Source of the DNA: Notolepis coatsorum
Lineage: Eukaryota > Chordata > Actinopteri > Aulopiformes > Paralepididae
Reading direction: 5' to 3'
Length of the DNA: 64,000 bases
Assembly: GCA_963971535.1 (NCBI GenBank)
Contig: OZ020592.1
Location: 125,581,937 to 125,645,936 of the forward strand
Shown: in pieces, positions 627 through 63,221 of the stretch
Layout of the letters: every line of letters begins with the position of its first letter
How positions within the stretch are numbered: position 1 is the stretch's first letter
The notes under the pieces: model-generated
What the model saw: the letters and a program-made list of their open reading frames with translations, nothing else
Told to the model about the DNA's origin: nothing
Database searches by the model: none
Position numbers and translations under genes: made by a program

Positions 627-758
627 ATGCTGAAGCATGCTGTCAGACCGTGGTTGCATCGCTGCAGACAACTATCATGGACTAAAGTCAGAAGTTACTA
701 TGCAGATCAAGTCGCCACGCTGGGTACTCAGCAGGACATTCATTCTCAGGACTACCAG
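627..758 (+). CDS. mccc2: mccc2 exon 1 (start codon and mitochondrial targeting peptide)
   Basis: First coding exon of the 3-methylcrotonyl-CoA carboxylase beta subunit, the carboxyltransferase that moves CO2 from carboxybiotin on the alpha subunit to 3-methylcrotonyl-CoA in leucine breakdown, in the mitochondrial matrix. It encodes residues 1-44. The first 25 are rich in Arg, Lys and His and lack acidic residues (MLKHAVRPWLHRCRQ…), as expected of a cleaved presequence. YYADQVATLGTQQD then matches the family's conserved start of the mature protein. The exon ends in CAG before GTGGGT, phase 0. The ATG at 627 is chosen because it opens the frame that joins to exon 2; the ATG at 637 is out of frame. 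The gene spans 627 to beyond the window. Confidence 0.93.
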
Positions 759-21897: not shown

Positions 21898-23382
21898 CGT
21901 GAATATTAAAGGCAACCAACTTGTGTTCGGCTTTTCTCTGATTGGCCGCGCCCCCCCGCCCCCACGCGCAGGCAAGCGCAGCCGTCCCACGTCCCAAATG
22001 AAATCCAAAGAGCAAGCGCGGCAGCGCGGGCAACCAACTTCTGTAGTGTTGGGCTGCTGTTCCAACGCACTTGTGTTGGGCTGTGGTAGCAGTGGAGCGT
22101 GGAGCGCTGCTGACTGATTATTATGTTTCGCGTTTTTAACAACCAACGGTAGATTCACTCGTCACTGTACATGTATAAACAAAGCCCATACAGTTATGAA
22201 ATAATAAACACTGTTAGGACTCGCAATAATAAACACTGTTACGACTATATATATACTAGACTAGACTAGACACATAGCCATAATTTAAGATATAGTTTAT
22301 GTATTCGCAAATATGAGAGCTCTGTCATTGAAGTGGGTGGTGGCAGTGTAACAACGTTCACCCTGATGTAAAGTAGCGATTTTTATTGTTTTGTCATGAC
22401 AACCCAATTACATAATCCAACATATGTGTAAAGAAACAACATATTCCAGTTAACGGAATATTTTTTAATGATTCATTACGGTATAAATTAGGTTAACTAG
22501 AGCCAGCGGGGCAATGCGGTTGTTCATTCACCGGCTTCAGTGCGCCGCCCGCGGCTTGACTCGGTTCAGCGTTCACCCTGATGTAAAGTAGCGATTTTTA
22601 TTGTTTTGTCATGACAACCCAATTACATAATCCAACATATGTGTAAAGAAACAACATATTCCAGTTAACGGAATATTTTTTAATGATTCATTACGGTATA
22701 AATTAGGTTAACTAGAGCCAGCGGGGCAATGCGGTTGTTCATTCACCGGCTTCAGTGCGCCGCCCGCGGCTTGACTCGGTTCAGCGTTCACCCTGATGTA
22801 AAGTAGCGATTTTTATTGTTTTGTCATGACAACCCAATTACATAATCCAACATATGTGTAAAGAAACAACATATTCCAGTTAACGGAATATTTTTTAATG
22901 ATTTCATTACGGTATAAATTAGGTTAACTAGAGCCAGCGGGGCAATGCGGTTGTTCATTCACCGGCTTCAGTGCGCCGCCCGCGGCTTGACTCGGTTCAG
23001 CGTTCACCCTGATGTAAAGTAGCGATTTTTATTGTTTTGTCATGACAACCCAATTACATAATCCAACATATGTGTAAAGAAACAACATATTCCAGTTAAC
23101 GGTATATTTTTTAATGATTCATTACGGTATAAATTAGGTTAACTGGAGCTGTGGAAACTATTATCTTAAATTATGGCTATGTGTCTAATATGGCTGTCTC
23201 AAACACAAGGACCTGGGGGAGCCTCATGCGCATGCACGGCTCTCTGCCGCGACTCTCTTGTCTCTCTTGTCTCTCTTGCTGCAAGGCCGCGTGCTAGTGG
23301 ATTGATTGATTGGCCGTGTGGCCAATCAGAGAAACGCTGAACGAAAAGCTGAACACAAGTTGGTTGCCTTTAATATTCACGC
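21898..23382. mobile_element. TIR DNA transposon with 9-bp target duplication (MULE-like) carrying a satellite
   Basis: The termini GCGTGAATATTAAAGGCAAC and …GTTGCCTTTAATATTCACGC form inverted repeats of about 37 bp. The flanking duplication is CCCCTGAAC at 21889-21897 and 23383-23391, inside the Gypsy gag-pol. A 9-bp duplication with long inverted repeats suggests a Mutator-like family, but no transposase is present. The left 390 bp recurs inverted at window positions 1-397. Confidence 0.8.
22356..23160. repeat. 215-bp satellite, about 3.7 copies
   Basis: The unit begins GTTCACCCTGATGTAAAGTA and repeats at 22356, 22571, 22786 and 23002 (periods 215, 215, 216). The copies are almost identical, with a one-base insertion (ATGATTTCATT) and one change (GGAATATT to GGTATATT). 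This indicates recent amplification. Each unit contains TTGTTTTGTCATGACAACCC and GTGCGCCGCCCGCGGC. Confidence 0.95.
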
Positions 23383-27264: not shown

Positions 27265-27331
27265 GAAAACTATGAGCGAATGCAAGTCCTTGTGGAAGAA
27301 CTGAACACCCAGACAGAGAGGATCAAACTGG
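27265..27331 (+). CDS. mccc2: mccc2 exon 2
   Basis: 67 nt encoding residues 45-66 plus the first base of codon 67: ENYERMQVLVEELNTQ then TERIKLG. The family has an equivalent amphipathic helix (…NQLHERVEHIKLG in mammals) ahead of the carboxyltransferase core. The acceptor is TTTTCCAG. The donor G|GTAAGTGAT is strong, phase 1. No tandem repeat touches either junction. Confidence 0.95.
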
Positions 27332-31758: not shown

Positions 31759-31843
31759 GTGGAGGAGAAAAGGCCAGGAATCTCCATAAGTCTCGAGGGA
31801 AACTCTTGCCAAGAGAGCGCATAGACAGGCTCCTGGATCCAGG
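31759..31843 (+). CDS. mccc2: mccc2 exon 3
   Basis: 85 nt completing codon 67 and encoding residues through the first two bases of codon 95: [20 protein letters not shown] then [26 protein letters not shown] is a hallmark of biotin-dependent carboxyltransferases at the start of the acyl-CoA-binding domain. The acceptor is GGTACCAG. The donor GG|GTACAT is weak compared with the other donors of this gene. Phase 1 in, phase 2 out. Confidence 0.96.
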
Positions 31844-32882: not shown

Positions 32883-33116
32883 AGAACCTTGTTATCTATC
32901 ACAGTCTTGTGTTTTATTTAACGCTTCAGAACCTTGTTATCTATCAGTCTTTATTGTGTTTTATTTAACTCTTCAGAACCTTGTTATCTATCAGTCTTTA
33001 TTGTGTTTTATTTAACTCTTCAGAACTGTGTTATCTATCAGTCTTTATTGTGTTTTATTGAACTCTTCAGAACCGTGTTATCTATCAGTCTTTATTGTGT
33101 TTCCTTAACTCTTCAG
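32883..33116 (+). repeat. 47-bp tandem repeat containing the exon 4 splice acceptor
   Basis: Five units start at 32883, 32930, 32977, 33024 and 33071, each AACCTTGTTATCTATCAGTC… to …TTAACTCTTCAG. CAG ends fall at 32929, 32976, 33023 and 33070, and the true acceptor is at 33116 (spacing 47, 47, 47, 46). The exon begins AACC, as the repeat units do. The last copy alone has the more pyrimidine-rich TTTCCTTAACTC, which may favour it. Decoy use would shift the frame or, for 33023 (+93 nt), add an in-frame TAA. Confidence 0.95.
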
Positions 33117-33218
33117 AACCCCATTTCTGGAATTCTCACAGTTTGCAGCCTATCAGCTGTATGGAAAGGAAGAGGTTCCAGCGGGTGGTATAATTACTGG
33201 AATTGGGCGAGTTTCAGG
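33117..33218 (+). CDS. mccc2: mccc2 exon 4
   Basis: 102 nt finishing codon 95 and encoding residues 95-128 plus two bases: [20 protein letters not shown] then [25 protein letters not shown] is strongly conserved in the family and forms part of the CoA-binding crotonase-like fold. Both junctions lie inside tandem arrays: the acceptor in a 47-bp repeat and the donor (GG|GTAAGTT at 33218/33219) in a 21-bp repeat. The choice of 33218 is fixed by codon phase with exon 5. Confidence 0.96.
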
Positions 33219-33399
33219 GTAAGTTCTAATAGTTTCAGGGTACGTTCTAATGGTTTCAGGGTAAGTTCTAATAGTTTCAGGGTAAGTTCTAATAGTGTCA
33301 GGGTAAGTTCTAATAGTTTCAGGGTAAGGTCTAATAGTTTCAGGGTAAGTTCTAATAGTTTCAGGGTAAGTTCTAATAGTTTCAGGGTAAGGTCTAATA
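33211..33399 (+). repeat. 21-bp array built on the exon 4 donor, block 1 (9 copies)
   Basis: Nine tandem 21-mers, the first being the real junction: GTTTCAGG (exon) then GTAAGTTCTAATA (intron). Variants are GTACGTT (copy 2), GTGTCAG (copy 5) and GTAAGGT (copies 6 and 9). Reading past the true donor gives GTT TCA GGG TAA, an immediate stop. A hAT inserted at 33400 using the array's own GTCTAATA as target. Confidence 0.97.
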
Positions 33400-35887
33400 C
33401 AGGGGTGGCCAACCCGCGGCTCGCGAGCCGCATGCAGCTCTTTGCCGGTCAATGTGCGGCTCTTCCATCCATTAAAAAATAAATAAAAAATGTTTCCATA
33501 AGGACGTAGAATAAACATTTACAACTTTTTTTTAAATGGTCCATTTGCATGTTCTTGGTATCTGAATCTAGGGACATATATGGATCAGTGTCAGAAATAG
33601 TGTGTCTGTTACTAGGCTTGAGTAAATTGTAATGAACCAAAGGAGAATATCAATTCTATTTAAAAAAAACTTTTTTATCTTTGACTGTGAATAACACCAT
33701 GCTAAAATTGACCAGTCCAGAAAAATCTAAGCAAATGAATAAAGGGAAGATGATTAAACAGAAGGTTTTGTAGATACAGTACTGAATTCTGCCATCTTTT
33801 TTATAATGTAAATTTCTCCACCATTTTCATCATATTGCAACACCGTTTTTTGCAAGACGTTCACAGAAAGGTAGAGAAACTAACTGCGTTCTGTTTTATG
33901 GCAATAACGTTCAGGTTTGTGGGAGATAATCCCAAAAAATAAGAGAAATAAAAAAGTAAATCCAGAAGTCAGATGATTGACCGGGGCTGGTGTGAGCTGG
34001 GTAGGGTAGTTTTTCGAAATTTGAAAGCCCTTCAAAAGACTACACTCACTTTTGGATGTGCCACTTCCTCCTGTCAATATGCGCCGGTTTCCGACTCAAT
34101 GCCCTGAGATTTCTATAATCTTATATTTCACTAATAACAGTTAAAATAATTCGTAAACAAACGTAATGCTGAAAATATACACTTTTACTGTATATTTCGG
34201 GCTTAAGAGGTTAACCCTGTGAGGCCCAAATTAAAAAGACATTAGCAACTTCAGAGGCCAGAGGGTGGGACATAATAAACACATTTACTATCAAATAGCA
34301 TTGTGAGGCTGAACAACAGGACCAATTGACTATACATGTGCTTAAGGGGAACTATCTTATAAATGGCCTTTTTCAGTGTTTACCATTGTTTCTTAGCTAT
34401 GTGGACTTATATTAATAGGATCTATGTCTCTAATTCTCATATTGGCGCATTCTTCCAATTCTCCTCTCACAATATTCACCCTCACTGAACCGAGTCATCT
34501 GAAAATGTGCATATCTGTGATGTCAGAGATTTCTGAGCTGCATAATAATGTGGCAGTTGATGTGGCAGTTGGCACCAGGCCACACAGTGGTTGGAGCCCA
34601 GCCTCAAAACGGCTTAAGATCTTGAGGTAGAAAAATGCGGTTTTTGAATACTTGATTAGAAATACAAAACAATGCATTTTTTTTTTGAAAAAAACCTAGG
34701 TGTTCCATAGACTCACAGGAATTGTGTAAAAGTGCCCAAATAGTGAAAGAAATAGTAAAATAGTTCCCCTTTAACATTTTTTCAATCAATCAATCAATCA
34801 ATCAAATTTATTTGTACAGCACGTTTAAACATGACGCTTGTCAACCAAAGTGCTTCACATAGCTAAGCTAAGTACAAAGAAAAGTATAAAATAAACAGAA
34901 AAATAATATAAAATCAACGGATAGACAAAGGAAAAACAGAACAACACGTCAACAAGTACGGCAAGAGTCAAAGTGAGTCAGGGAAGGCCAGGCGATATAG
35001 GTGGGTTTTGAGTTTTGATTTAAAAGACTCGATGGAGGGGGCAGATTTAATGGACATGGGGACGCTGTTCCAGAGGTCAGGGGCTGCGACCGCAAAAGCA
35101 CGTCCCCCCCTAGACTTGAAGTTAGACCTACGAGTGGTTAGGAGACCCTTATCAGCCGATCTGAGGGCCCTGGCGTTGGTATAGGGGGTGAGGAGGTCTG
35201 CTAGGTAAGCAGGGGCTTTACCATTTAGGGCTTTATAAACCAATAAGAGGACCTTGAAGTCTATTCTAAAGCGCACCGGGAGCCAGTGGAGGGAGGCAAG
35301 TACAGGGGTGATGTGAGCTCTCTTCCGGGTACCTGTGAGCAGTCTAGCGGCAGCGTTTTGGGGGAGTTGTAGACGGGCTATGGTGGATTTATTTAGCCCC
35401 AGGTACAGGGAGTTACAGTAGTCTAAGCGTGAGGATATGAAGGCGTGAATTACTCTTTCCAGGTCTGATCTTGGCTATGGACCGGAGCTGGAAAAAGCAC
35501 CCCTTCACCACCGAGTTTACCTGCCTATTGAAGGAAAACTCGGGGTCAAAGAGCACGCTCAGGTTTTTAACAAAGGGCTTGACTAGGGGAGACAGGTTAC
35601 CCAGGCTGCTGGCAATGACACTGGTTTGGTTCGTACATTATTTTTTTAAATGGCTAAAAGTGATTTTGTAATTTTGCAACCGTGGGTCTCACAGGGTACT
35701 TTTAACCCGGTGAGGCCCAAATAAAAAAGACATTAGCAACTTCAGAGGCCAGAGGGTGAGACCTATAAACGCATGAAGGGTGCCGTGACTGAAAAAAAAG
35801 TTGAGAAACGCTGGTATATGGTGTGGCTCTTTGTGGTACCACAGTAATTTTTGTGGTTCTTAGTCTCTGACTGGTTGGCCACCCCTG
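33400..35887. mobile_element. hAT element with CAGGGGTGGCCAACC ends
   Basis: The termini are CAGGGGTGGCCAACCCGC and …GGTTGGCCACCCCTG. They are flanked by a perfect duplication, GTCTAATA at 33392-33399 and 35888-35895. A direct repeat of about 60 bp (GTGAGGCCCAAAT…GACATTAGCAACTTCAG) is at 34217 and 35708. It contains an L2 fragment (34785-35475). No transposase was found. Confidence 0.93.
34785..35475 (-). pseudogene. L2-clade LINE 3' fragment
   Basis: On the minus strand, 34968-35276 encodes RIDFKVLLLVYKALNGKAP and RAFAVAAPDLWNSVPMSIKS…FKSKLKTHLYRLAF. This is the typical C-terminus of L2-type LINE polyproteins. Its 3' UTR runs to an AATC tandem tail (about 34785-34803 on the + strand). It is 5'-truncated. 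Confidence 0.85.
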
Positions 35888-35895
35888 GTCTAATA

Positions 35896-36145
35896 GTTTC
35901 AGGGTAAGTTCTAATAGTTTCAGGGTAAGTTCTAATGGTTTCAGGGTAAGTTCTAATAGTTTCAGGGTAAGTTCTAATAGTGTCAGGGTAAGTTCCAATA
36001 GTTTCAGGGTAAGGTCTAATAGTTTCAGGGTAAGTTCTAATAGTTTCAGTGTAAGTTCTAATAGTTTCAGGGTAAGGTCTAATAGTTTCAGGGTAAGTTC
36101 TAATAGTTTCAGGGTAAGTTCTAATAGTTTCAGGGTAAGTTCTAA
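35896..36145 (+). repeat. 21-bp donor array, block 2 (about 12 copies)
   Basis: This continues the exon 4 donor array to the right of the hAT. Most copies keep CAGGGTAAGTT. Exceptions are CAGTGTAAGTT, GTAAGGT (twice) and TTCCAATA. It ends where another element inserted at TAA. Confidence 0.96.
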
Positions 36146-36863
36146 CGTCACGGTGACCAAATGCGTCCGCATTTTTATAGGATTCGATCACATTTTCATA
36201 ACAATAGCGAATATAACTTAACCTGCACCGTTTTCATTGAGGTTTCTTACAAATTAACGATGTTTTATTTGTCCTTTATATGCGGATAACATTAAAATTT
36301 TAAATTGTACAATTATGTTCCCCTTTAGACAACAAACATAATGCTAATGATGCACTTTTGTTAAGATAATTAGGTGACCATTCTCGGTCACTATATTCAG
36401 GTCGCATTAATAGTTTAACGCTGTTCAGATCACATTTTCTTAATCCGGTGCTGACCTGTGAACTAGGTGATAAATGTCTTGGGATTTGTAGTCATTTTGT
36501 AGTCATAACATTTTCATCTTTTAAACCAATGCTGCCATCTACTGACAACAAAGTGTTGTGTAAGTTAATTAGAGAGGCTACCCACACTTGTAAACACCGT
36601 CGCCCAAAACACATTCTAGAGATTCCCACTTTTTACTGGTACATGCGTTCATATATAATAGTCTTTAGATGACTAAATATAGATGAATACTCATGAAATT
36701 TGACATATATATTCTAAAATAAGTATAATTTCACTTCACCTAGCTGTCGACATGAAATTTCCAAACGCTGACAGTAAAAAAAGCCTGGATGTCGCGCAAA
36801 ATGGGGCGTGACCGAATTTGGTCTACAGACAAAGAGAGTGACCGAGATTGGTCTACTATTGGT
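36146..36863. mobile_element. Insertion with TAA target duplication (Harbinger-like?)
   Basis: It sits between TAA at 36143-36145 and TAA at 36864-36866; removing it and one TAA restores the 21-mer exactly. The ends CGTCACGGTGACCAAAT and …GACCGAGATTGGTCT have only a degenerate inverted match. A 3-bp TWA target fits PIF/Harbinger. No gene is visible. Confidence 0.65.
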
Positions 36864-36866
36864 TAA

Positions 36867-37026
36867 TAGTTTCAGGGTAAGTTCTAATAGTTTCAGGGTA
36901 AGTTCTAATAGTTTCAGGGTAAGTTCTAATGGTGTCAGGGTAAGTTCTAATGGTTGCAGGGTAAGTTCTAATAGTTTCAGGGTAAGTTCTAATAGTTTCA
37001 GGGTAAGTTCTAATAGTTTCAGGGTA
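36867..37026 (+). repeat. 21-bp donor array, block 3 (about 7.5 copies)
   Basis: Further donor 21-mers, with GTGTCAG and GTTGCAG variants. The last is cut at GTTTCAGGGTA by a LINE insertion. Confidence 0.95.
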
Positions 37027-37480
37027 CATTTACATGTACATTTAGTCATTTAGCTGACGCTTTTATCCAAAGCGACTTACAAGTTCTGTACGACAAGTCA
37101 TCAGGAAGGGTACAACTCTATCAGCTGAGTAACAATGTTCATCAAAGTGTTGCATGTTACAGTATAGCTTAGTTTATTAGGACAAGTGCATGACAGTACG
37201 GTTAGTTAGGGTTAGATGTATATTTTTTTCTTTTTTTTTTCTTTCATTATTTCAGATAATGGTTGAAGAAGTGCGTCTTTAGTCGACGTCGAAAGATTGG
37301 ACGGGATTCGGCTGTCCTAACTGGGGTGGGTAGTTCATTCCACCATTGTGGGGCAAGGACTGAGAATAGGTGGCTTCTCTTTGATGACCCTTCCGGAGCT
37401 TGGATAGGAGTAGGTCTGAGGCGGCCAGAAGATGCAGAACATAGGGGTCTTGAGGGTGTGTAGTTAGAGACCAGGGTAAG
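37027..37480 (-). pseudogene. L2-clade LINE 3' end with UnaL2-like stem-loop
   Basis: On the minus strand the C-terminal peptide LFSVLAPQWWNELPTPVRTA and FRRRLKTHFFNH is L2-like. Near its 3' end (37058-37074) is CGCTTT-GGATA-AAAGCG. This stem with a GGATA loop is recognised by the reverse transcriptase of eel UnaL2-type LINEs. It ends in ATGTAAATGTA-type repeats at 37027. Confidence 0.8.
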
Positions 37481-37541
37481 GGTAAGTTCTAATAGTTTCA
37501 GGGTAAGTTCTAATGGTTCCAGGGTAAGTTCTAATATCTTC
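37481..37541 (+). repeat. 21-bp donor array, block 4 (about 3 copies)
   Basis: The last copies of the exon 4 donor unit, including GGTTCCAGGGTAAGTTC. The array ends at CTAATATCTTCCC. The total over four blocks is about 31 units. Confidence 0.9.
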
Positions 37542-38880
<1,339 letters not shown>

Positions 38881-39147
38881 GTATTCACCTGTATATACCT
38901 GGGTAAGTGTTACCATGTATTCACCTGTATATACCTGGCTAAGTGTTACCATGTATTCACCTGTATATACCTGGGTAAGTGTTACCATGTATTCACCTGT
39001 ATATACCTGGCTAAGTGTTACCATGTATTCACCTGTATATACCTGGGTAAGTGTTACCATGTATTCACCTGTATATACCTGGCTAAGTGTTACCATATAT
39101 TCACCTGTATATACCTGGCTAAGTGTTACCATGTATTCACCTGGGTC
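38881..39147 (+). repeat. 36-bp array of the exon 5 donor, block 2
   Basis: Units of 36 bp (GTATTCACCTGTATATACCT then GGGTAAGTGTTACCAT). Live donors (GGGTAAG) alternate with dead ones (GGCTAAG), giving a 72-bp higher-order period over about three rounds. The array also reads open on both strands, but this is a by-product of periodicity. Confidence 0.95.
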
Positions 39148-39151
39148 AGTG

Positions 39152-39637
39152 TGATAGTTATTAAGACTGGATTGATATGTATGAGCCAGCTGGACAGAGA
39201 TTCAGGAAACAAAGGTGAAGTCAATCGATGGTCTTTATTGACAGGAACACACGGAGAACGAGGAACAGTCCTGGAGACCACAGCCCTCCATGGGGGCTGC
39301 AAGGCTCTATAATGATGACACAACCATGGCTTTTATCCTATGTGGGAGTTCCAAATTTAGAGAGCCACTGGTTAATAATGGATGATCAGACAGGCTTGGT
39401 CGTATATGGTAGTCTAAGGATGAATCTTGTTTGCTCCTCTCACTGGCCTGTGGCCGGAGGCCCGATAGAGCCATGCATGCACATTAGGTCACACAGGTCA
39501 TCAGGTCAGAGTATTTCTGGGTGCATGGCCTGGGTGCCTGGCTTGTCACTGGACCCCACAGCCACATTCAGCCACATTCCAGAGAGCTGGATGTCGGAAT
39601 CTAATCCTTCAGGGGAATATTAATGAATCTCCTTACA
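39152..39637 (-). mobile_element. Solo LTR with 4-bp target duplication
   Basis: 486 bp starting TGATAG and ending TTACA on the + strand (TGTAAGGAG…ACTATCA on the minus strand). AGTG is duplicated at 39148-39151 and 39638-39641. An AATAAA signal on the minus strand lies at about 39234-39239. No internal region remains, as after LTR-LTR recombination. Confidence 0.75.
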
Positions 39638-39795
39638 AGTGTTACCATGTATTCACCTGTATATACCTGGGTAAGTGTTACCATGTATTCACCTGTATAT
39701 ACCTGGCTAAGTGTTACCATGTATTCACCTGGGTAAGTGTTACCAATGTATTCACCTGTATATACCTGGGTAAGTGTTACCATGCATATACCTGG
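39638..39795 (+). repeat. 36-bp donor array of exon 5, block 3
   Basis: Four more units, three with GGGTAAG and one with GGCTAAG. It then ends with CATGCATATACCTGG at 39781-39795, a 15-base exact copy of the true end of exon 5 (38006-38020). It passes without a gap into the 17-19-bp minisatellite. Confidence 0.93.
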
Positions 39796-39851
39796 CTCTG
39801 TAGACTCTGTGGAGCTCTGTATGCTCTCTGGAGCTCTGTGGGCTCTCTGGG

Positions 39852-40143
39852 GCATAACAAAAAATTGTTTGGTTCCTGTTGGTCGTCAGTTAAGGCCATG
39901 GGTAGGTAGGGAATTTATAATTTTTTTATAGGGAATTTCTTTATTTAATTAAAATGTTCACGACAACATGGATGCATGTACTCTGCCAGCATGTTTAATA
40001 TCCATAATACTAAAGGTTTGACTACGATTTTTATGAAACTTTATTGTTATAAAAAAAAAAAAAAATGTAACTCGTAAAATTTGGTCACACCTAAATCGGC
40101 AGGGTCGGTCGGCAACCGGAACCAAACAATTTTTTTTTAGGCC
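39852..40143. mobile_element. Small MITE (GGCATAACAAAAAATTG), copy 1
   Basis: The inverted ends are CAAAAAATTGTTTGGTTCC and GGAACCAAACAATTTTTTTT. TGG flanks both sides, which could be a 3-bp duplication. A second copy is at 58881-59213, sharing AATTAAAATGTTCAC and AAATCGGCAGGGTCGGTCGG. Confidence 0.75.
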
Positions 40144-43100
40144 TGGAGCTCTGTAGGCTCTCTGGAGCTCTGTAAGCTCTCTGGAGCTCTGTAGACTCTC
40201 TGGAGCTCTGTAGACTCTCTGGAGCTCTGTAGGCTCTCTGGAGCTCTGTAGGCTCTGTGGAGCTCTGTAGACTCTGGAGCTCTGTAGGCTCTCTGGAGCT
40301 CTGTAGACTCTGGAGCTCTGTAGGCTCTCTGGAGCTCTGTAGGCTCTCTGGAGCTCTGTAGACTCTCTGGAGCTCTGTAGGCTCTGGAGCTCTGTAGACT
40401 CTCTGGAGCTCTGTAGGCTCTGGAGCTCTGTAGACTCTGGAGCTCTGTAGGCTCTCTGGAGCTCTGTAGACTCTGGAGCTCTGTAGGCTCTCTGGAGCTC
40501 TGTAGACTCTGGAGCTCTGTAGGCTCTCTGGAGCTCTGTAGACTCTGGAGCTCTGTAGGCTCTCTGGAGCTCTGTAGACTCTGGAGCTCTGTAGGCTCTC
40601 TGGAGCTCTGTAGACTCTGGAGCTCTGTAGGCTCTCTGGAGCTCTGTAGGCTCTCTGGAGCTCTGTAGACTCTGGAGCTCTGTAGGCTCTCTGGAGCTCT
40701 GTAGGCTCTCTGGAGCTCTGTAGACTCTCTGGAGCTCTGTAGACTCTGGAGCTCTGTAGGCTCTCTGGAGCTCTGTAGGCTCTCTGTAGGCTCTCTGGAG
40801 CTCTGTAGACTCTGGAGCTCTGTAGACTCTGTGGAGCTCTCTAGACTGGAGCTCTGTAGACTCTAGAGCTCTGTAGACTCTCTGGAGCTCTGTAGACTCT
40901 CTGGAGCTCTGTAGGCTCTCTGTAGCTCTGTAGACTCTGGAGCTCTGTAGACTCTGGAGCTCTGTAGACTCTGTGGAGCTCTGTAGACTCTCTGGAGCTC
41001 TGTAGGCTCTGTGGAGCTCTGTAGACTCTGGAGCTCTGTAGACTCTGGAGCTCTGTAGACTCTCTGGAGCTCTGTAGACTCTCTGGAGCTCTGTAGACTC
41101 TCTGGAGCTCTGTAGGCTCTCTGGAGCTCTGTAGACTCTGGAGCTCTGTAGGCTCTGTGGAGCTCTGTAGGCTCTCTGTAGGCTCTCTGGAGCTCTGTAG
41201 GCTCTCTGGAGCTCTGTAGGCTCTCTGTAGGCTCTCTGGAGCTCTGTAGGCTCTCTGGAGTTCTGTAGGCTCTCTGGAGCTCTGTAGACTCTCTGTAGGC
41301 TCTCTGGAGCTCTGTAGGCTCTCTGGAGCTCTGTAGACTCTGGAGCTCTGTAGGCTCTGTGGAGCTCTGTAGGCTCTCTGTAGGCTCTCTGGAGCTCTGT
41401 AGACTGGAGCTCTGTAGACTCTCTGGAGCTCTGTAGACTCTGTGGAGCTCTGTAGACTCTGGAGCTCTGTAGACTGGAGCTCTGTAGACTCTGGAGCTCT
41501 GTAGACTCTCTGGAGCTCTGTAGGCTCTCTGGAGCTCTGTAGGCTCTCTGTAGGCTCTCTGGAGCTCTGTAGGCTCTCTGGAGCTCTGTAGACTCTGGAG
41601 CTCTGTAGGCTCTGTGGAGCTCTGTAGGCTCTCTGTAGGCTCTCTGGAGCTCTGTAGACTGGAGCTCTGTAGACTCTCTGGAGCTCTGTAGACTCTGTGG
41701 AGCTCTGTAGACTCTGGAGCTCTGTAGACTGGAGCTCTGTAGACTCTGGAGCTCTGTAGACTCTCTGGAGCTCTGTAGACTCTCTGGAGCTCTGTAGACT
41801 GGAGCTCTGTAGACTCTCTGGAGCTCTGTAGACTCTCTGGAGCTCTGTAGACTCTCTGGAGCTCTGTAGGCTCTCTGGAGCTCTGTAGGCTCTGTGGAGC
41901 TCTGTAGACTCTGGAGCTCTGTAGACTCTCTGGAGCTCTGTAGACTCTGTGGAGCTCTGTAGACTCTGGAGCTCTGTAGGCTCTCTGGAGCTCTGTAGAC
42001 TCTGGAGCTCTGTAGGCTCTCTGGAGCTCTGTAGACTCTGTGGAGCTCTGTAGGCTCTCTGGAGCTCTGTAGGCTCTCTGTAGGCTCTCTGGAGCTCTGT
42101 AGGCTCTGTGGAGCTCTGTAGGCTCTCTGTAGGCTCTCTGGAGCTTGTAGGCTGGAACTCTGTAGACTCTCTGGAGCTCTGTAGACTCTCTGGAGCTCTG
42201 TTAGCTCTCTGGAGCTCTGTGGGCTCTCTGGAGCTCTGTTAGCTCTCTGGAGCTCTGTTAGCTCACTGGAGCTCTGTAGGCTCTCTGGAGCTTGTAGGCT
42301 GGAGCTCTGTAGACTCTGTGGAGCTCTCTAGACTCTGTGGAGCTCTGTAGACTGGAGCTCTGTTAGCTCACTGGAGCTCTGTAGGCTCTCTGGAGCTCTG
42401 TAGACTCTGGAGCTCTGTAGACTCTGTGGAGCTCTGTAGACTCTCTGGAGCTCTGTAGACTCTCTGGAGCTCTGTAGACTCTGTGGAGCTCTGTAGACTC
42501 TCTGGAGCTCTGTAGGCTCTGTGGAGCTCTGTAGGCTCTCTGGAGCTCTGTAGACCCTGGAGCTCTGTGGAGCTCTGTAGACTCTGTGGAGCTCTGTTAG
42601 CTCTCTGGAGCTCTGTAGGCTCTCTGGAGCTCTGTAGACCCTGGAGCTCTGTGGAGCTCTGTAGACTCTGTGGAGCTCTGTTAGCTCACTGGAGCTCTGT
42701 AGACTCTCTGTTAGCTCTCTGGAGCTCTGTAGACTCTCTGTTAGCTCTCTGGAGCTCTGTAGACTCTGTTAGCTCACTGGAGCTCTGTAGACTCTCTGTT
42801 AGCTCTCTGGAGCTCTGTTAGCTCTCTGGAGCTCTGTAGACTCTGGAGCTCTGTAGGCTGGAGCTCTGTAGGCTCTCTGGAGCTCTGTAGGCTCTGTGGA
42901 GCTCTGTAGGCTCTGTGGAGCTCTGTAGACTCTCTGGAGCTCTGTAGACTCTGGAGCTCTGTAGACTCTGTGGAGCTCTGTAGACTCTGTGGAGCTCTGT
43001 AGACTCTCTGGAGCTCTGTAGACTCTCTGGAGCTCTGTAGACTCTGTGGAGCTCTGTAGACTCTGGAGCTCTGTAGGCTCTCTGGAGCTCTGTAGACTCT

Positions 43101-44170
43101 GTGGAGCTCTGTAGACTCTCTGGAGCTCTGTGGGCTCTGGAGCTCTGTAGGCTCTGTGGAGCTCTGTAGACTCTGTGGAGCTCTGTTAGCTCTCTGGAGC
43201 TCTGTAGACTCTCTGTTAGCTCACTGGAGCTCTGTTAGCTCTCTGTTAGCTCTCTGGAGCTCTGTTAGCTCTCTGGAGCTCTGTTAGCTCACTGGAGCTC
43301 TGTTAGCTCTCTGTTAGCTCTCTGGAGCTCTGTTAGCTCTCTGGAGCTCTGTTAGCTCACTGGAGCTCTGTAGACTCTCTGTTAGCTCTCTGGAGCTCTG
43401 TTAGCTCTCTGGAGCTCTGTTAGCTCTCTGGAGCTCTGTTAGCTCACTGGAGCTCTGTTAGCTCACTGGAGCTCTGTAGACTCTCTGTTAGCTCTCTGGA
43501 GCTCTGTTAGCTCTCTGGAGCTCTGTTAGCTCTCTGGAGCTCTGTTAGCTCACTGGAGCTCTGTTAGCTCACTGGAGCTCTGTGGGCTCTGGAGCTCTGT
43601 AGGCTGGAGCTCTGTAGGCTCTCTGGAGCTCTGTAGGCTCTGTGGAGCTCTGTAGACTCTGGAGCTCTGTAGGCTCTCTGGAGCTCTGTAGGCTCTCTGG
43701 AGCTCTGTAGACTCTGGAGCTCTGTAGGCTCTCTGGAGCTCTGTAGACTCTCTGGAGCTCTGTAGACTCTGGAGCTCTGTAGGCTCTCTGGAGCTCTGTA
43801 GACTCTGGAGCTCTGTAGGCTCTCTGGAGCTCTGTAGGCTCTCTGGAGCTCTGTAGGCTCTCTGGAGCTCTGTAGGCTCTGTGGAGCTCTGTAGACTCTC
43901 TGGAGCTCTGTAGACTCTGGAGCTCTGTAGGCTCTCTGGAGCTCTGTAGACTCTGGAGCTCTGTAGGCTCTCTGGAGCTCTGTAGACTCTGGAGCTCTGT
44001 AGACTCTCTGGAGCTCTGTAGGCTCTGTGGAGCTCTGTAGACTCTCTGGAGCTCTGTAGACTCTGGAGCTCTGTAGGCTCTCTGGAGCTCTGTAGACTCT
44101 GGAGCTCTGTAGGCTCTCTGGAGCTCTGTAGACTCTGGAGCTCTGTAGGCTCTCTGGAGGCTCTGTAGAC

Positions 44171-45947
44171 CAGCGGTTCTCAACAGGGGTTCCCCGGCAC
44201 ACAGGGGTTCCGCGGAGAGCTGCCAGGGGTTCCGCGAGATGCCTGGCAATGTTCTTTAAAAATTTAGAATGACAACAGTCTTATTTTGAAAATCCTATAG
44301 CGGGTCTCATTTCTGCCCACGCGCAGCTCCAGCTAAATAACTAGGCTCCGAAAGCTAGCAACATTTAGGTCATTATGATACTCTTATTTTGAAACTCCGT
44401 GGTGTCGTGACTCATATCCGCTCTACAGCACACAGCCAATAAGGATGCATCTCAACACAGCAGGCTGAGCAGTGAGCTTAGCGTCTCTCAGCTCAGCAGT
44501 AGTAGCGTACTCTGGATCTGGAACGCGGACATTGAAACACAGCAAGGATAGTGTTTTTGCGACCCAAAACAAATCCCTGCTGTTTTATTCCGCAACGGGT
44601 CAAATGCATATAACATGCTTTGCAATCCTTGCCATTCCTTTGTGGCCACGTTGTGTTTAAGACCGGAATTAATGTGCCTTTAGCATAAGCTAACAACAAG
44701 CCCTGTTCAGAGCGACAGAGAACAGCAGGGTGGGGACTTGGAAGGAGGGGGGGGGGGGGGGGGGGGGCATTCTCCCTCTATGTGTGTGCGTTTGAAAAGA
44801 TATGATGAAGTCAGACTACTATATTATATTGATAGTAAATGTACTGAGGGTGGACAGACAGATTATGTTGATATTAACATAAAAAATACAATACATAATA
44901 AATGTATCCATGATCATCATGCAACATAAAACAATTGCAGGAACGGTTTGGGAGAGGAAGGTGTTTTAGGTTGCGTGTTCCAAAAAATGTACTTAAAGTT
45001 TAAAGCTCAATATATCAAAACGTGGCACTTTATAGTGAACAGGCACTTTATAGTGAATCCAAATTATTTTTTGGATTACAGAAAATTATCCCTAAAGTGC
45101 TATCTGATGCAGCTGCACTGTTTTCCATGAAAATACCATATTTGGATAAGTTTGACCATTTCTAAAAATCTGAATCATTAAGTCACTCTGGATAAAAAAA
45201 GACTTTACAGACAACATTGAGACAAAGCTTCCTGACACATCTCCATCCAAACTCTTGGAAGAACTCATTGAAATCTCATCATATCTGTGTGAAGCTGGCT
45301 TTTCATCCATGACAGCTCTGAAAACAAAATATAGGGCCAAGTTGAGCCTTGATGATGACATGCGTGTTGCCTTGTCAAAGATCTCCCCACGTATTGACCG
45401 TATTATTAGCCAGCAGCAGCGGACCTCGCATTGAGCTAGAAATGTCCACTGAGTGAACGAGTGCTTATTTTTTTATATTTTTTGAGAAATGGTAACTTGG
45501 TGATCCTTTTCTGTATTTAAAAAAAATACATGATTTTCTGTTTTTGAGAAATTGTCAAACTTATCCAAATATGCTATTTTTATGGAGAACAGTGCAGCTG
45601 CAACAGATAGCACTTTAGTGATCCTTTTCTGTATTAAAAAAAAAATACATGATTTTCAGTTTTTTCTTAAATAAACATTATTTTGAAAGCAAGCACTTTT
45701 GTCATCAGATTCAGACAACTTTATTGATCCCGCGTGGGGCAATTCATATTTGCAGATTCACCAACAAGCAACAAAGACAAACAAACAACAAAACATCTCA
45801 ACGACAGCATGGCAAATAAAGAATCATTGTATCATCATTGTAGCAAAAAAGACAGGACCGAAAAAGTCTTTATCGTATGTAGGGGTGCCCTGGAATATTT
45901 TATTGAACACAGGGGTGCCTTGGCAGCAGAAAGGTTGAGAACCCCTG
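44171..45947. mobile_element. hAT (Charlie-like) element inside the minisatellite
   Basis: The ends are CAGCGGTTCTCAACAGGGGT and …AGGTTGAGAACCCCTG. TGTAGAC flanks both sides. It keeps the transposase C-terminus (45210-45434). A poly-G run is at 44747-44767. The GCAACGGGTCAAATGCATAT block is shared with the hAT at 19972. Confidence 0.9.
45210..45434 (+). pseudogene. hAT transposase C-terminal fragment
   Basis: It reads DNIETKLPDTSPSKLLEELI then EISSYLCEAGFSSMTALKTK, LDDDMRVALSKISPRIDRII and a stop. It matches the dimerisation tail of Charlie/ZBED-type hAT transposases (CEAGFS…K.K.R..L….D.RVALS). The catalytic residues lie upstream and are not present. Confidence 0.85.
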
Positions 45948-47166
45948 CAGTGTAGACTCTCTGGAGCTCTGTAGGCTCTCTGGAGTTCTGTAGGCGCTCT
46001 GGAGCTCTGTAGGCTCTCTGTAGGCTCTCTGGAGCTCTGTAGACTCTCTGGAGCTCTGTAGACTCTCTGGAGTTCTGTAGGCTCTCTGGAGCTCTGTAGA
46101 CTCTCTGGAGCTCTGTAGACTCTCTGGAGCTCTGTAGACTCTCTGGAGCTCTGTAGGCTCTCTGGAGTTCTGTAGGCTCTCTGGAGCTCTGTAGACTCTC
46201 TGGAGCTCTGTAGACTCTCTGGAGCTCTGTAGGCTCTCTGTAGGCTCTCTGGAGCTCTGTAGACTCTCTGGAGCTCTGTAGACTCTCTGGAGCTCTGTAG
46301 ACTCTCTGGAGCTCTGTAGGCTCTCTGGAGCTCTGTAGACTCTCTGGAGCTCTGTAGACTCTCTGGAGCTCTGTAGGCTCTCTGTAGGCTCTCTGGAGCT
46401 CTGTAGACTCTCTGGAGCTCTGTAGACTCTCTGGAGCTCTGTAGGCTCTCTGGAGTTCTGTAGGCTCTCTGGAGCTCTGTATGCTCTGTAGACTGTGGAG
46501 CTCTGTGGAGCTCTGTGGAGCTCTGTATGCTCTCTGGAGCTCTGTAGACTGTGGAGCTCTGTAGACTCTCTGTTAGCTCACTGGAGCTCTGTAGACTGTG
46601 GAGCTCTGTAGACTCTCTGTTAGCTCACTGGAGCTCTGTAGACTGTGGAGCTCTGTAGACTCTCTGTTAGCTCACTGGAGCTCTGTTAGCTCTCTGGAGC
46701 TCTGTTAGCTCACTGGAGCTCTGGGCTCTCTGGAGCTCTGTAGACTCTCTGTGGGCTCTCTGGAGCTCTGTTAGCTCACTGGAGCTCTGTTAGCTCACTG
46801 GAGCTCTGTTAGCTCATGGAGCTCTGTTAGCTCACTGGAGCTCTGTTAGCTCACTGGAGCTCTGTTAGCTCACTGGAGCTCTGTTAGCTCTCTGGAGCTC
46901 TGTAGACTCTGGAGCTCTGTGGGCTCTCTGGAGCTCCTATTAGCTCTCTGGAGCTCTGTAGGCTCTCTGGAGCTCTGTTAGCTCTCTGGAGCTCTGTTAG
47001 CTCACTGGAGCTCTGTGGGCTCTCTGGAGCTCTGTTAGCTCTCTGGAGCTCTGTTAGCTCACTGGAGCTCTGTGGGCTCTCTGGAGCTCTGTTAGCTCAC
47101 TGGAGCTCTGTTAGCTCACTGGAGCTCTGTGGGCTCTCTGGAGCTCTGTTAGCTCACTGGAGCTCT

Positions 47167-63108: not shown

Positions 63109-63221
63109 TGGACTCTGGAGGGGCCAATCTACCCAGGCAGGCAGATGTCTTCCCCGACAGAGACCATTTTGGACGGATTTTCTTCAACCAGGCAAGACTG
63201 TCTTCGGAGGGACTGTCACAG
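63109..63221 (+). CDS. mccc2: mccc2 exon 6
   Basis: 113 nt encoding residues 172-209: [20 protein letters not shown] then [22 protein letters not shown] is the conserved glycine motif of the crotonase-fold carboxyltransferase, and [14 protein letters not shown] is specific to the methylcrotonyl type. The acceptor is CTGACTCCCTCAG and the donor CAG|GTAATACT, phase 0. The gene continues past the window; the family is about 560 residues, so roughly 350 more are expected. Confidence 0.97.

Follow-up and report, generated by a model that had tools for sequence, protein, structure and literature searches.

Tandem arrays spanning seven splice junctions of the mccc2 gene in Notolepis coatsorum

Background

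Tandem duplications across splice junctions have been described in the human CBS gene, and they are the closest counterparts of the arrays analyzed here in mccc2, a gene of leucine breakdown, in the fish Notolepis coatsorum. The CBS variable number tandem repeat (VNTR) c.1444_1467+7(16_21), located at exon 13/intron 13, is described as a 31-bp unit made of the last 24 exon bases and 7 intron bases, present in 16-21 copies; it is polymorphic, and the part of a review devoted to it associates more units with lower CBS activity (PMC5188458). The second case, 844ins68, is presented as a 68-bp duplicated junction at intron 7/exon 8 of which the exon-attached copy is used; the passage in question says “donor” and the title cited there says 3' splice site (PMC2630376). 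The stretch under study, hereafter the window, comprises 64,000 nucleotides (G000:C24:125581937-125645936) of a 3.42-Gb assembly and holds exons 1-6 of mccc2 on the plus strand, the gene being situated 92% along its 137-Mb contig.

An initial annotation of the window had recognized a minisatellite at the donor of exon 4, with the exon-intron junction as its unit. Beyond this array, six more mccc2 junctions are duplicated, two of them in the window (the exon-4 acceptor and the exon-5 donor). The choice of the spliceosome among equal sites has, to our knowledge, mostly been studied with few engineered copies. We describe here the arrays, the strength and predicted consequences of the decoy splice sites that they contain, and their distribution relative to the minisatellites of the gene and to the junctions of other genes.

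Results

Seven duplicated junctions in one gene

Tandem arrays of unrelated units span 7 of the 32 splice junctions of mccc2, on the donor and acceptor sides, a junction being considered duplicated when a 20-base stretch across it recurs nearby with 3 mismatches or fewer. They place 87 decoy splice sites beside the 32 real ones: 4 at the exon-4 acceptor (47-bp unit including 4 exon bases), 30 at the exon-4 donor (21-bp unit), 8 with GT at the exon-5 donor (26/36-bp unit), 13 at the exon-7 acceptor (65-bp unit including 38 exon bases), 11 at the exon-15 acceptor (35-bp unit), 18 at the exon-15 donor (39-bp unit) and 3 at the exon-17 acceptor (51/31-bp unit). Exons 4 and 15 carry arrays on both flanks. 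All are made of head-to-tail units of 10-100 bp, as minisatellites are (Tandem Repeats Finder, TRF, and unit alignment), and the unit contains exon and intron bases of the real junction in register, as in a junction-spanning VNTR of the CBS type. The arrays reach 2-38 bp into the exon; when TRF edges are taken and at least 4 bases are required either side of the junction, it is crossed by six of the seven arrays, that of the exon-15 donor beginning 2 bases before it. Since the units at the seven junctions are unrelated, they point to separate births. A 14-base copy 47 bp downstream of the exon-14 donor is below the criterion length and was left out of the count.

The gene model was completed with the next 200 kb downstream of the window (coordinates above 64000 are counted on from it). 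It consists of 17 exons, 1,695 coding bases and 564 amino acids, with a single stop at the very end of the spliced frame; 11 of the 17 exons (7-17) are located past the end of the window and reach C24:125707223. The assignment of the initial array to exon 4 of mccc2 (33117..33218, plus strand, 102 bp) is supported by tblastn with human MCCC2 and by the spliced reading frame, as is exon 5 (37893..38020, plus). The product was aligned with ten MCCC2 orthologues (seven bony fishes, skate, coelacanth and human) chosen among 120 listed of 7,997 matches. It shares 81-90% identity with them, Gadus and Periophthalmus being the nearest of the ten (90%), and has an insertion at none of the seven junctions that are duplicated. 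Elsewhere in the alignment, four orthologues (Gadus, Gasterosteus, Arapaima and Esox) have odd stretches or gaps of their own; in Esox one residue is absent, four residues beyond the exon-15 donor. The colinearity of this model with fish and human MCCC2 at the duplicated junctions fits the use of the exon-attached copy, and with it the initial inference that the first of the exon-4 donors is the one to be chosen.

The exon-4 donor array

Exon 4 ends with ...GTTTCAGG and the following intron starts with GTAAGTTC, the real donor being at 33218/33219. As proposed initially, the 21-bp unit is the exon-intron junction itself: unit alignment gives 8 exon and 13 intron bases, in register with the real donor. 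The anticipated number of about 31 copies was also recovered, 31 units having each at most 4 mismatches to GTTTCAGGGTAAGTTCTAATA. The GT is intact in 31/31 units and the full 9-mer AGGGTAAGT in 25/31, in agreement with the claim that most copies keep a complete donor; the deviating copies have GTAAGG (four), GTACGT (one, the first extra copy) and AGT/GTAAGT (one; the slash marks the junction). In the rest of the window the unit has three matches, with 6 mismatches each, and a 30-base junction pattern occurs 10 times in the whole assembly, every time within this array, which is real and far above chance matching.

The units form four runs on the plus strand, of nine (33211..33399, the first unit being the real junction), twelve (35896..36147), seven followed by a partial one (36869..37015) and three (37474..37536), separated by three inserts, the array DNA proper representing about 0.65 kb of 4.3 kb. 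The gap-free succession of copies announced from 33218/33219 onwards consequently applies to the first nine units, the later ones being interrupted by a hAT-type element and by inserts of about 720 and 450 bp, and the array, given as extending to 37541, ends with its last unit at 37536. The first nine units of the second run copy the order of variants of the first run at 186/189 bases, against an average of 177 for shuffled units, and a fraction of 0.0004 of 5,000 shuffles equals this value. Because the two runs have this order of variant units in common, a block of nine units was doubled; slippage or unequal exchange would have this effect. A recursive (ratchet) splice site at this unit was ruled out, as in TTTCAG GG GTAAGT the GG separates AG from GT.

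The hAT-type element (33400..35887, 2,488 bp; no strand is assigned to this or the other inserts) has 15-bp terminal inverted repeats CAGGGGTGGCCAACC and is flanked by an 8-bp target duplication GTCTAATA at 33392-33399 and 35888-35895; once it is removed, the 21-bp register is perfect across the array. The second insert occupies 36148..36868 (about 720 bp). The third (37027..37473, about 450 bp) presumably resembles a fish short interspersed nuclear element and probably has a CAGGGTA duplication, as judged by eye. Another hAT-type element (38069..38880), with terminal repeats TAGGGATGCACCGA and a target duplication GTATTCAC on both sides, lies in the exon-5 donor array. Both elements have the ends of hAT transposons (target duplications of 8 bp, short terminal inverted repeats), on which their class rests. 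Because they interrupt the exon-4 and exon-5 arrays in register, with target duplications, these arrays are older than the elements.

The other two arrays of the window

The exon-4 acceptor array (32883..33120, plus) contains five copies of a 47-bp unit with CTTCAG/AAC, of which the last (33116/33117) is the real acceptor. The exon-5 donor array occupies, inserts included, 38005-39795 on the plus strand. Its first part (38005..38068) has two copies and part of a third of the 26-bp unit CCATGCATATACCTGG/GTAAGTGTTA (16 exon and 10 intron bases), its second part (38881..39143) is made of 36-bp units, some with CT in place of GT, and its last part (39637..39795) is directly adjoined by a short run of a 19-bp unit. 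The latter, CTGGAGCTCTGTAGGCTCT, recurs within 39795-47166: beyond the short run at the end of the exon-5 donor array, it forms two further arrays of about 5.2 kb together (40143-44168 and 45951-47166). By eye it is similar to the start of exon 6 (GTGGACTCTGGAG, 12/13 bases), possibly by chance.

Decoy strength and predicted splicing outcome

The strength of the decoys was measured at the donors of exons 4, 5 and 15 and at the acceptor of exon 7, and in most of these cases they are as strong as the real sites. At exon 4, pairing with U1 reaches -10.0 kcal/mol for the real donor and 24 of the 30 decoys, -9.4 for four, -8.4 for one and -5.8 for the weakest, which is the first extra copy. The real exon-5 donor and seven decoys reach -12.2 kcal/mol and one GT decoy -8.1, and six further copies have CT in place of GT. 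At the exon-15 donor, the values are -6.6 for the real site and -6.5 for all 18 decoys, and the consensus of the exon-7 decoys is identical to the real acceptor over 58 bases (20 intron and 38 exon). Weaker decoys as the explanation of a correct choice are consequently rejected for exons 7 and 15 and largely for exon 4, and are partly the explanation for exon 5. Since most measured decoys equal the real sites, the choice at these junctions can hardly rest on local sequence, and position remains.

The products of 59 of the 87 decoys were translated in silico (3 of the 30 at the exon-4 donor, 17 of the 18 at the exon-15 donor and all those of the other junctions). Fifty-six lead to a premature stop and three are open to the normal end, namely those from the closest copy of the exon-15 acceptor (+42 nt) and from two copies at exon 17 (+51 and +102 nt). 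The expectation that downstream exon-4 donors bring in an in-frame stop (GTT TCA GGG TAA) was verified for the first three extra donors, with a stop at codon 130; the remaining ones sit behind the same first TAA.

Arrays and minisatellite density within mccc2

Minisatellites (TRF, period of at least 9, arrays explained by microsatellites being removed) cover 18.6% of the window, 22.6% of mccc2 and 39.8% of the following 139 kb, compared with 13.9% of the 24 readable kb in three random stretches. Further along, in C24:125801937-125845936 (220001-264000), two 22-kb pieces consist of 79% and 62% minisatellite.

The initial annotation regarded the exon-4 array as seeded on a splice site. Such a special choice is not needed, arrays covering 7/32 junctions and 93/300 random intron positions (Fisher P 0.32). 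Coverage is 8-11/32 at 5-30 bp from the junctions and 13-14/32 at 100-400 bp, so there is no peak at the junction; deep-intron coverage is 20.8%. Exon-interior positions are rarely covered (9/242), 104 of the 1,695 exon bases being in arrays. At 12/32 junctions, and at 8/21 for exons 7-17 alone, an exon-facing array edge is found no more than 40 bp away, vs 4.7% of the intron points at a distance above 200 bp from exons and 34/337 (10.1%) of those at 120-1,000 bp. We read this as the exon acting as a barrier to arrays that fill the near-exon introns, and not as an attraction by splice sites.

With the 37 arrays of the window placed freely at random, 1.9 of its 11 junctions are expected to be covered and three are observed (P 0.30), under a null that permits exon-destroying arrays; a null respecting exons gives P 0.00025 for the three junction matches.

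Junctions of other genes and an MCCB-like paralogue

No junction-spanning array was found in 96 junctions of other genes, comprising 53 of myosin (54 were picked by eye and one was left out), 31 of acaca/acacb and 12 of the neighboring PGAP6/TMEM8-like gene. The control exon boundaries were placed by eye from family or tblastn matches together with AG/GT, and the control stretches are short, most including 200-350 bp of intron on either side; all seven mccc2 matches are still detected at a 150-bp reach. The difference between 7/32 and 0/96 has a Fisher P of 3.6e-5, and of 8e-4 for exons 7-17 (4/21), in tests that treat junctions as independent, which those of one gene are not. Minisatellites represent 34.8% of the exon flanks in mccc2, 4.1% in myosin, 9.3% in acaca/acacb and 18.5% in the neighboring gene. 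Junction arrays as a genome-wide rule are unsupported by this sample. In an acetyl-CoA carboxylase gene (G000:C21:71526094-71527393, minus), an array of about 51-bp units starts at approximately the fourth intron base and adjoins the donor without crossing it. Cingulin-like coiled-coil exons are present downstream of mccc2.

An MCCB-like paralogue at C6:79.9 Mb, with 72% identity to human MCCC2 over 61 residues, came up while PF01039 matches were being identified; PCCB, on C4, was recognized from one exon. In the paralogue, the acceptor equivalent to that of exon 7, ATCCAG/GTATCGGTGGTGTG... (G000:C6:79907600-79908150, minus), is present in eight tandem copies, spaced by 34 bp across the last seven, vs a 65-bp unit at mccc2 exon 7. 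If it is counted as 1/2 junctions (its donor being judged by eye), the controls become 1/98, with P 2.1e-4, or 0.0033 for exons 7-17.

Other features of the gene and window

The remaining exons of the window were placed by the spliced reading frame on the plus strand: exon 1 from the ATG (627..758), exon 2 (27265..27331), exon 3 (31759..31843) and exon 6 (63109..63221). In intron 1, an array starts 14 bp past exon 1, and a 215-bp unit repeated 3.7 times with 99% matches (22355-23149) is probably young. Intron 9 is a GC-AG intron in the model (GAG/GCAAGT at 85916/85917, C24:125667852). An Rfam scan of the window gave nothing reaching the gathering score.

Discussion

Origin of the arrays and rival explanations

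We propose, with a probability of about two in three, that these are ordinary minisatellites born across exon-intron boundaries, in a gene whose surroundings are dense in repeats, in a teleost genome rich in minisatellites, and that the exon-attached copy works and is chosen by position. A tandem duplication across a splice junction would leave the exon-attached copy whole and, because that copy stays intact, would be nearly neutral if the spliceosome takes it. The arrays would extend into the intron and halt 2-38 bp inside the exon because a duplication within the exon would not be nearly neutral. Vertebrate exons are recognized as units, which favors the nearest site pair around the exon; under exon definition, the site used would be the first one in a row of donors and the last one in a row of acceptors. 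Degradation is the usual fate of products with early stops. Splicing errors would lead to premature stops and be removed by nonsense-mediated decay (NMD), and because error products would be cleared in this way, array length could slightly lower MCCC2 output, in the way reported for CBS in humans. We infer slippage or unequal exchange as the cause, as well as the splicing choice, the NMD and any effect on output, and we would expect mccc2 splicing to behave by analogy with the duplicated junctions of human CBS.

Several results weigh against this proposal. A null in which each array is represented by a single randomly placed unit gives a mean of 0.22 junctions in the window vs the three observed (P 0.003), and when the entry of arrays into exons is limited to one unit, the expectation is 0.58 vs 6 in the gene by TRF edges, a number reached in 0/5,000 runs. 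The excess of mccc2 over the other genes may be more than repeat density explains. The controls comprise few genes, on which constraint may be stronger. The different arrays on the homologous exon-7 acceptor of the two paralogues hint at a sequence- or process-specific cause, the alternative being coincidence. A rival explanation is a mutational process linked to junctions, in which R-loops, pausing at exon edges or G-rich exon starts raise the rate of tandem duplication and splice sites serve as templates. The concentration of exon-facing edges near junctions (12/32 vs 34/337 local intron points), the seven unrelated arrays within one gene and the exon-7 acceptor affected with different units in mccc2 and its paralogue all speak for it, but the 0/96 junctions in other genes and the lack of a coverage excess right at the mccc2 junctions make it unlikely. 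We would give a similarly small chance to a broader version, according to which junctions of some genes are hot spots of tandem duplication tied to transcription or splicing, where real sites are printed in rows into introns and vertebrate splicing would tolerate tens of equal sites in a row because the exon-attached one is taken, making them natural tests of position-based choice with array length as an output dial.

Selection appears still less probable as the origin of the arrays, whether mccc2 output is tuned by rows of decoys, with poison splicing followed by NMD, or long introns are guarded against early polyadenylation by rows of U1 sites. The GT kept in 31/31 exon-4 copies and the full 9-mer in 25/31 could be taken in this sense, but intact copies are also expected in young or homogenized arrays, and six exon-5 copies have CT for GT. 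Likewise, 56/59 tested decoys lead to a premature stop and the length of the human CBS VNTR is reported to go with lower activity (PMC5188458), but units and positions have nothing in common among the mccc2 arrays and U1 would not be recruited by acceptor rows. That some decoys make real isoforms is improbable: the three open decoys (+42 nt at the exon-15 acceptor, +51 and +102 nt at exon 17) are in frame without a stop, but 0/10 aligned orthologues have an insert at either acceptor. An assembly artefact, by which one junction copy was falsely expanded, is very improbable. Arrays are difficult to assemble and the 200 kb downstream contain 5,000 N, possibly gaps; against it stand the unit variants in repeated order, the two hAT-type elements with target duplications, in register, within two arrays, and the distinct arrays at seven junctions, unlike a single error.

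On the preferred reading of ordinary minisatellites born across boundaries, coding bases block minisatellite growth in mccc2 and splice signals do not. At seven junctions, the gene has donors or acceptors in rows of 4 to 31, many of them locally identical, and in our in-silico model the right protein always comes from the exon-attached copy, so that position-based choice, its error rate and the cost of premature stops would be measurable in a natural gene.

Comparison with known systems

Among the papers listed by searches of the open-licence PMC literature (titles and abstract openings), we found none on a gene with several junction-spanning arrays. Polymorphic tandem repeats are described in teleost growth-hormone introns and in intron 1 of Sparus aurata myostatin-2 (PMC3045353); they are intronic and from fish, and the passages concerned state no junction-spanning unit, unlike mccc2. 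For Atlantic cod, a share of tandem repeats above 6% of bases is presented as extreme (PMC5241972), a value obtained by another method and mostly from short units, whereas minisatellites alone cover 22.6% in mccc2 and 39.8% in the 139 kb that follow. Intron gain has been attributed to tandem duplication of AGGT-bearing exon pieces (PMC4974935); there, as summarized, duplication yields new splice sites, whereas in mccc2 old junctions are multiplied without a new intron.

The two CBS variants remain the nearest. As it is described, 844ins68 is a duplicated junction as in mccc2, but with two copies only. The CBS VNTR resembles the mccc2 arrays in that its unit is the donor junction itself, in the gene of a metabolic enzyme, and that the end of the exon lies, by its naming, in the first copy. 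It concerns one junction, whereas mccc2 has seven, on both sides, with up to 31 units and transposable elements inside. The exon-4 array, initially called unusual, deserves the term for its scale and not for its kind: arrays of this kind are already known from the 31-bp VNTR of human CBS, and what mccc2 adds is the number of junctions and the scale.

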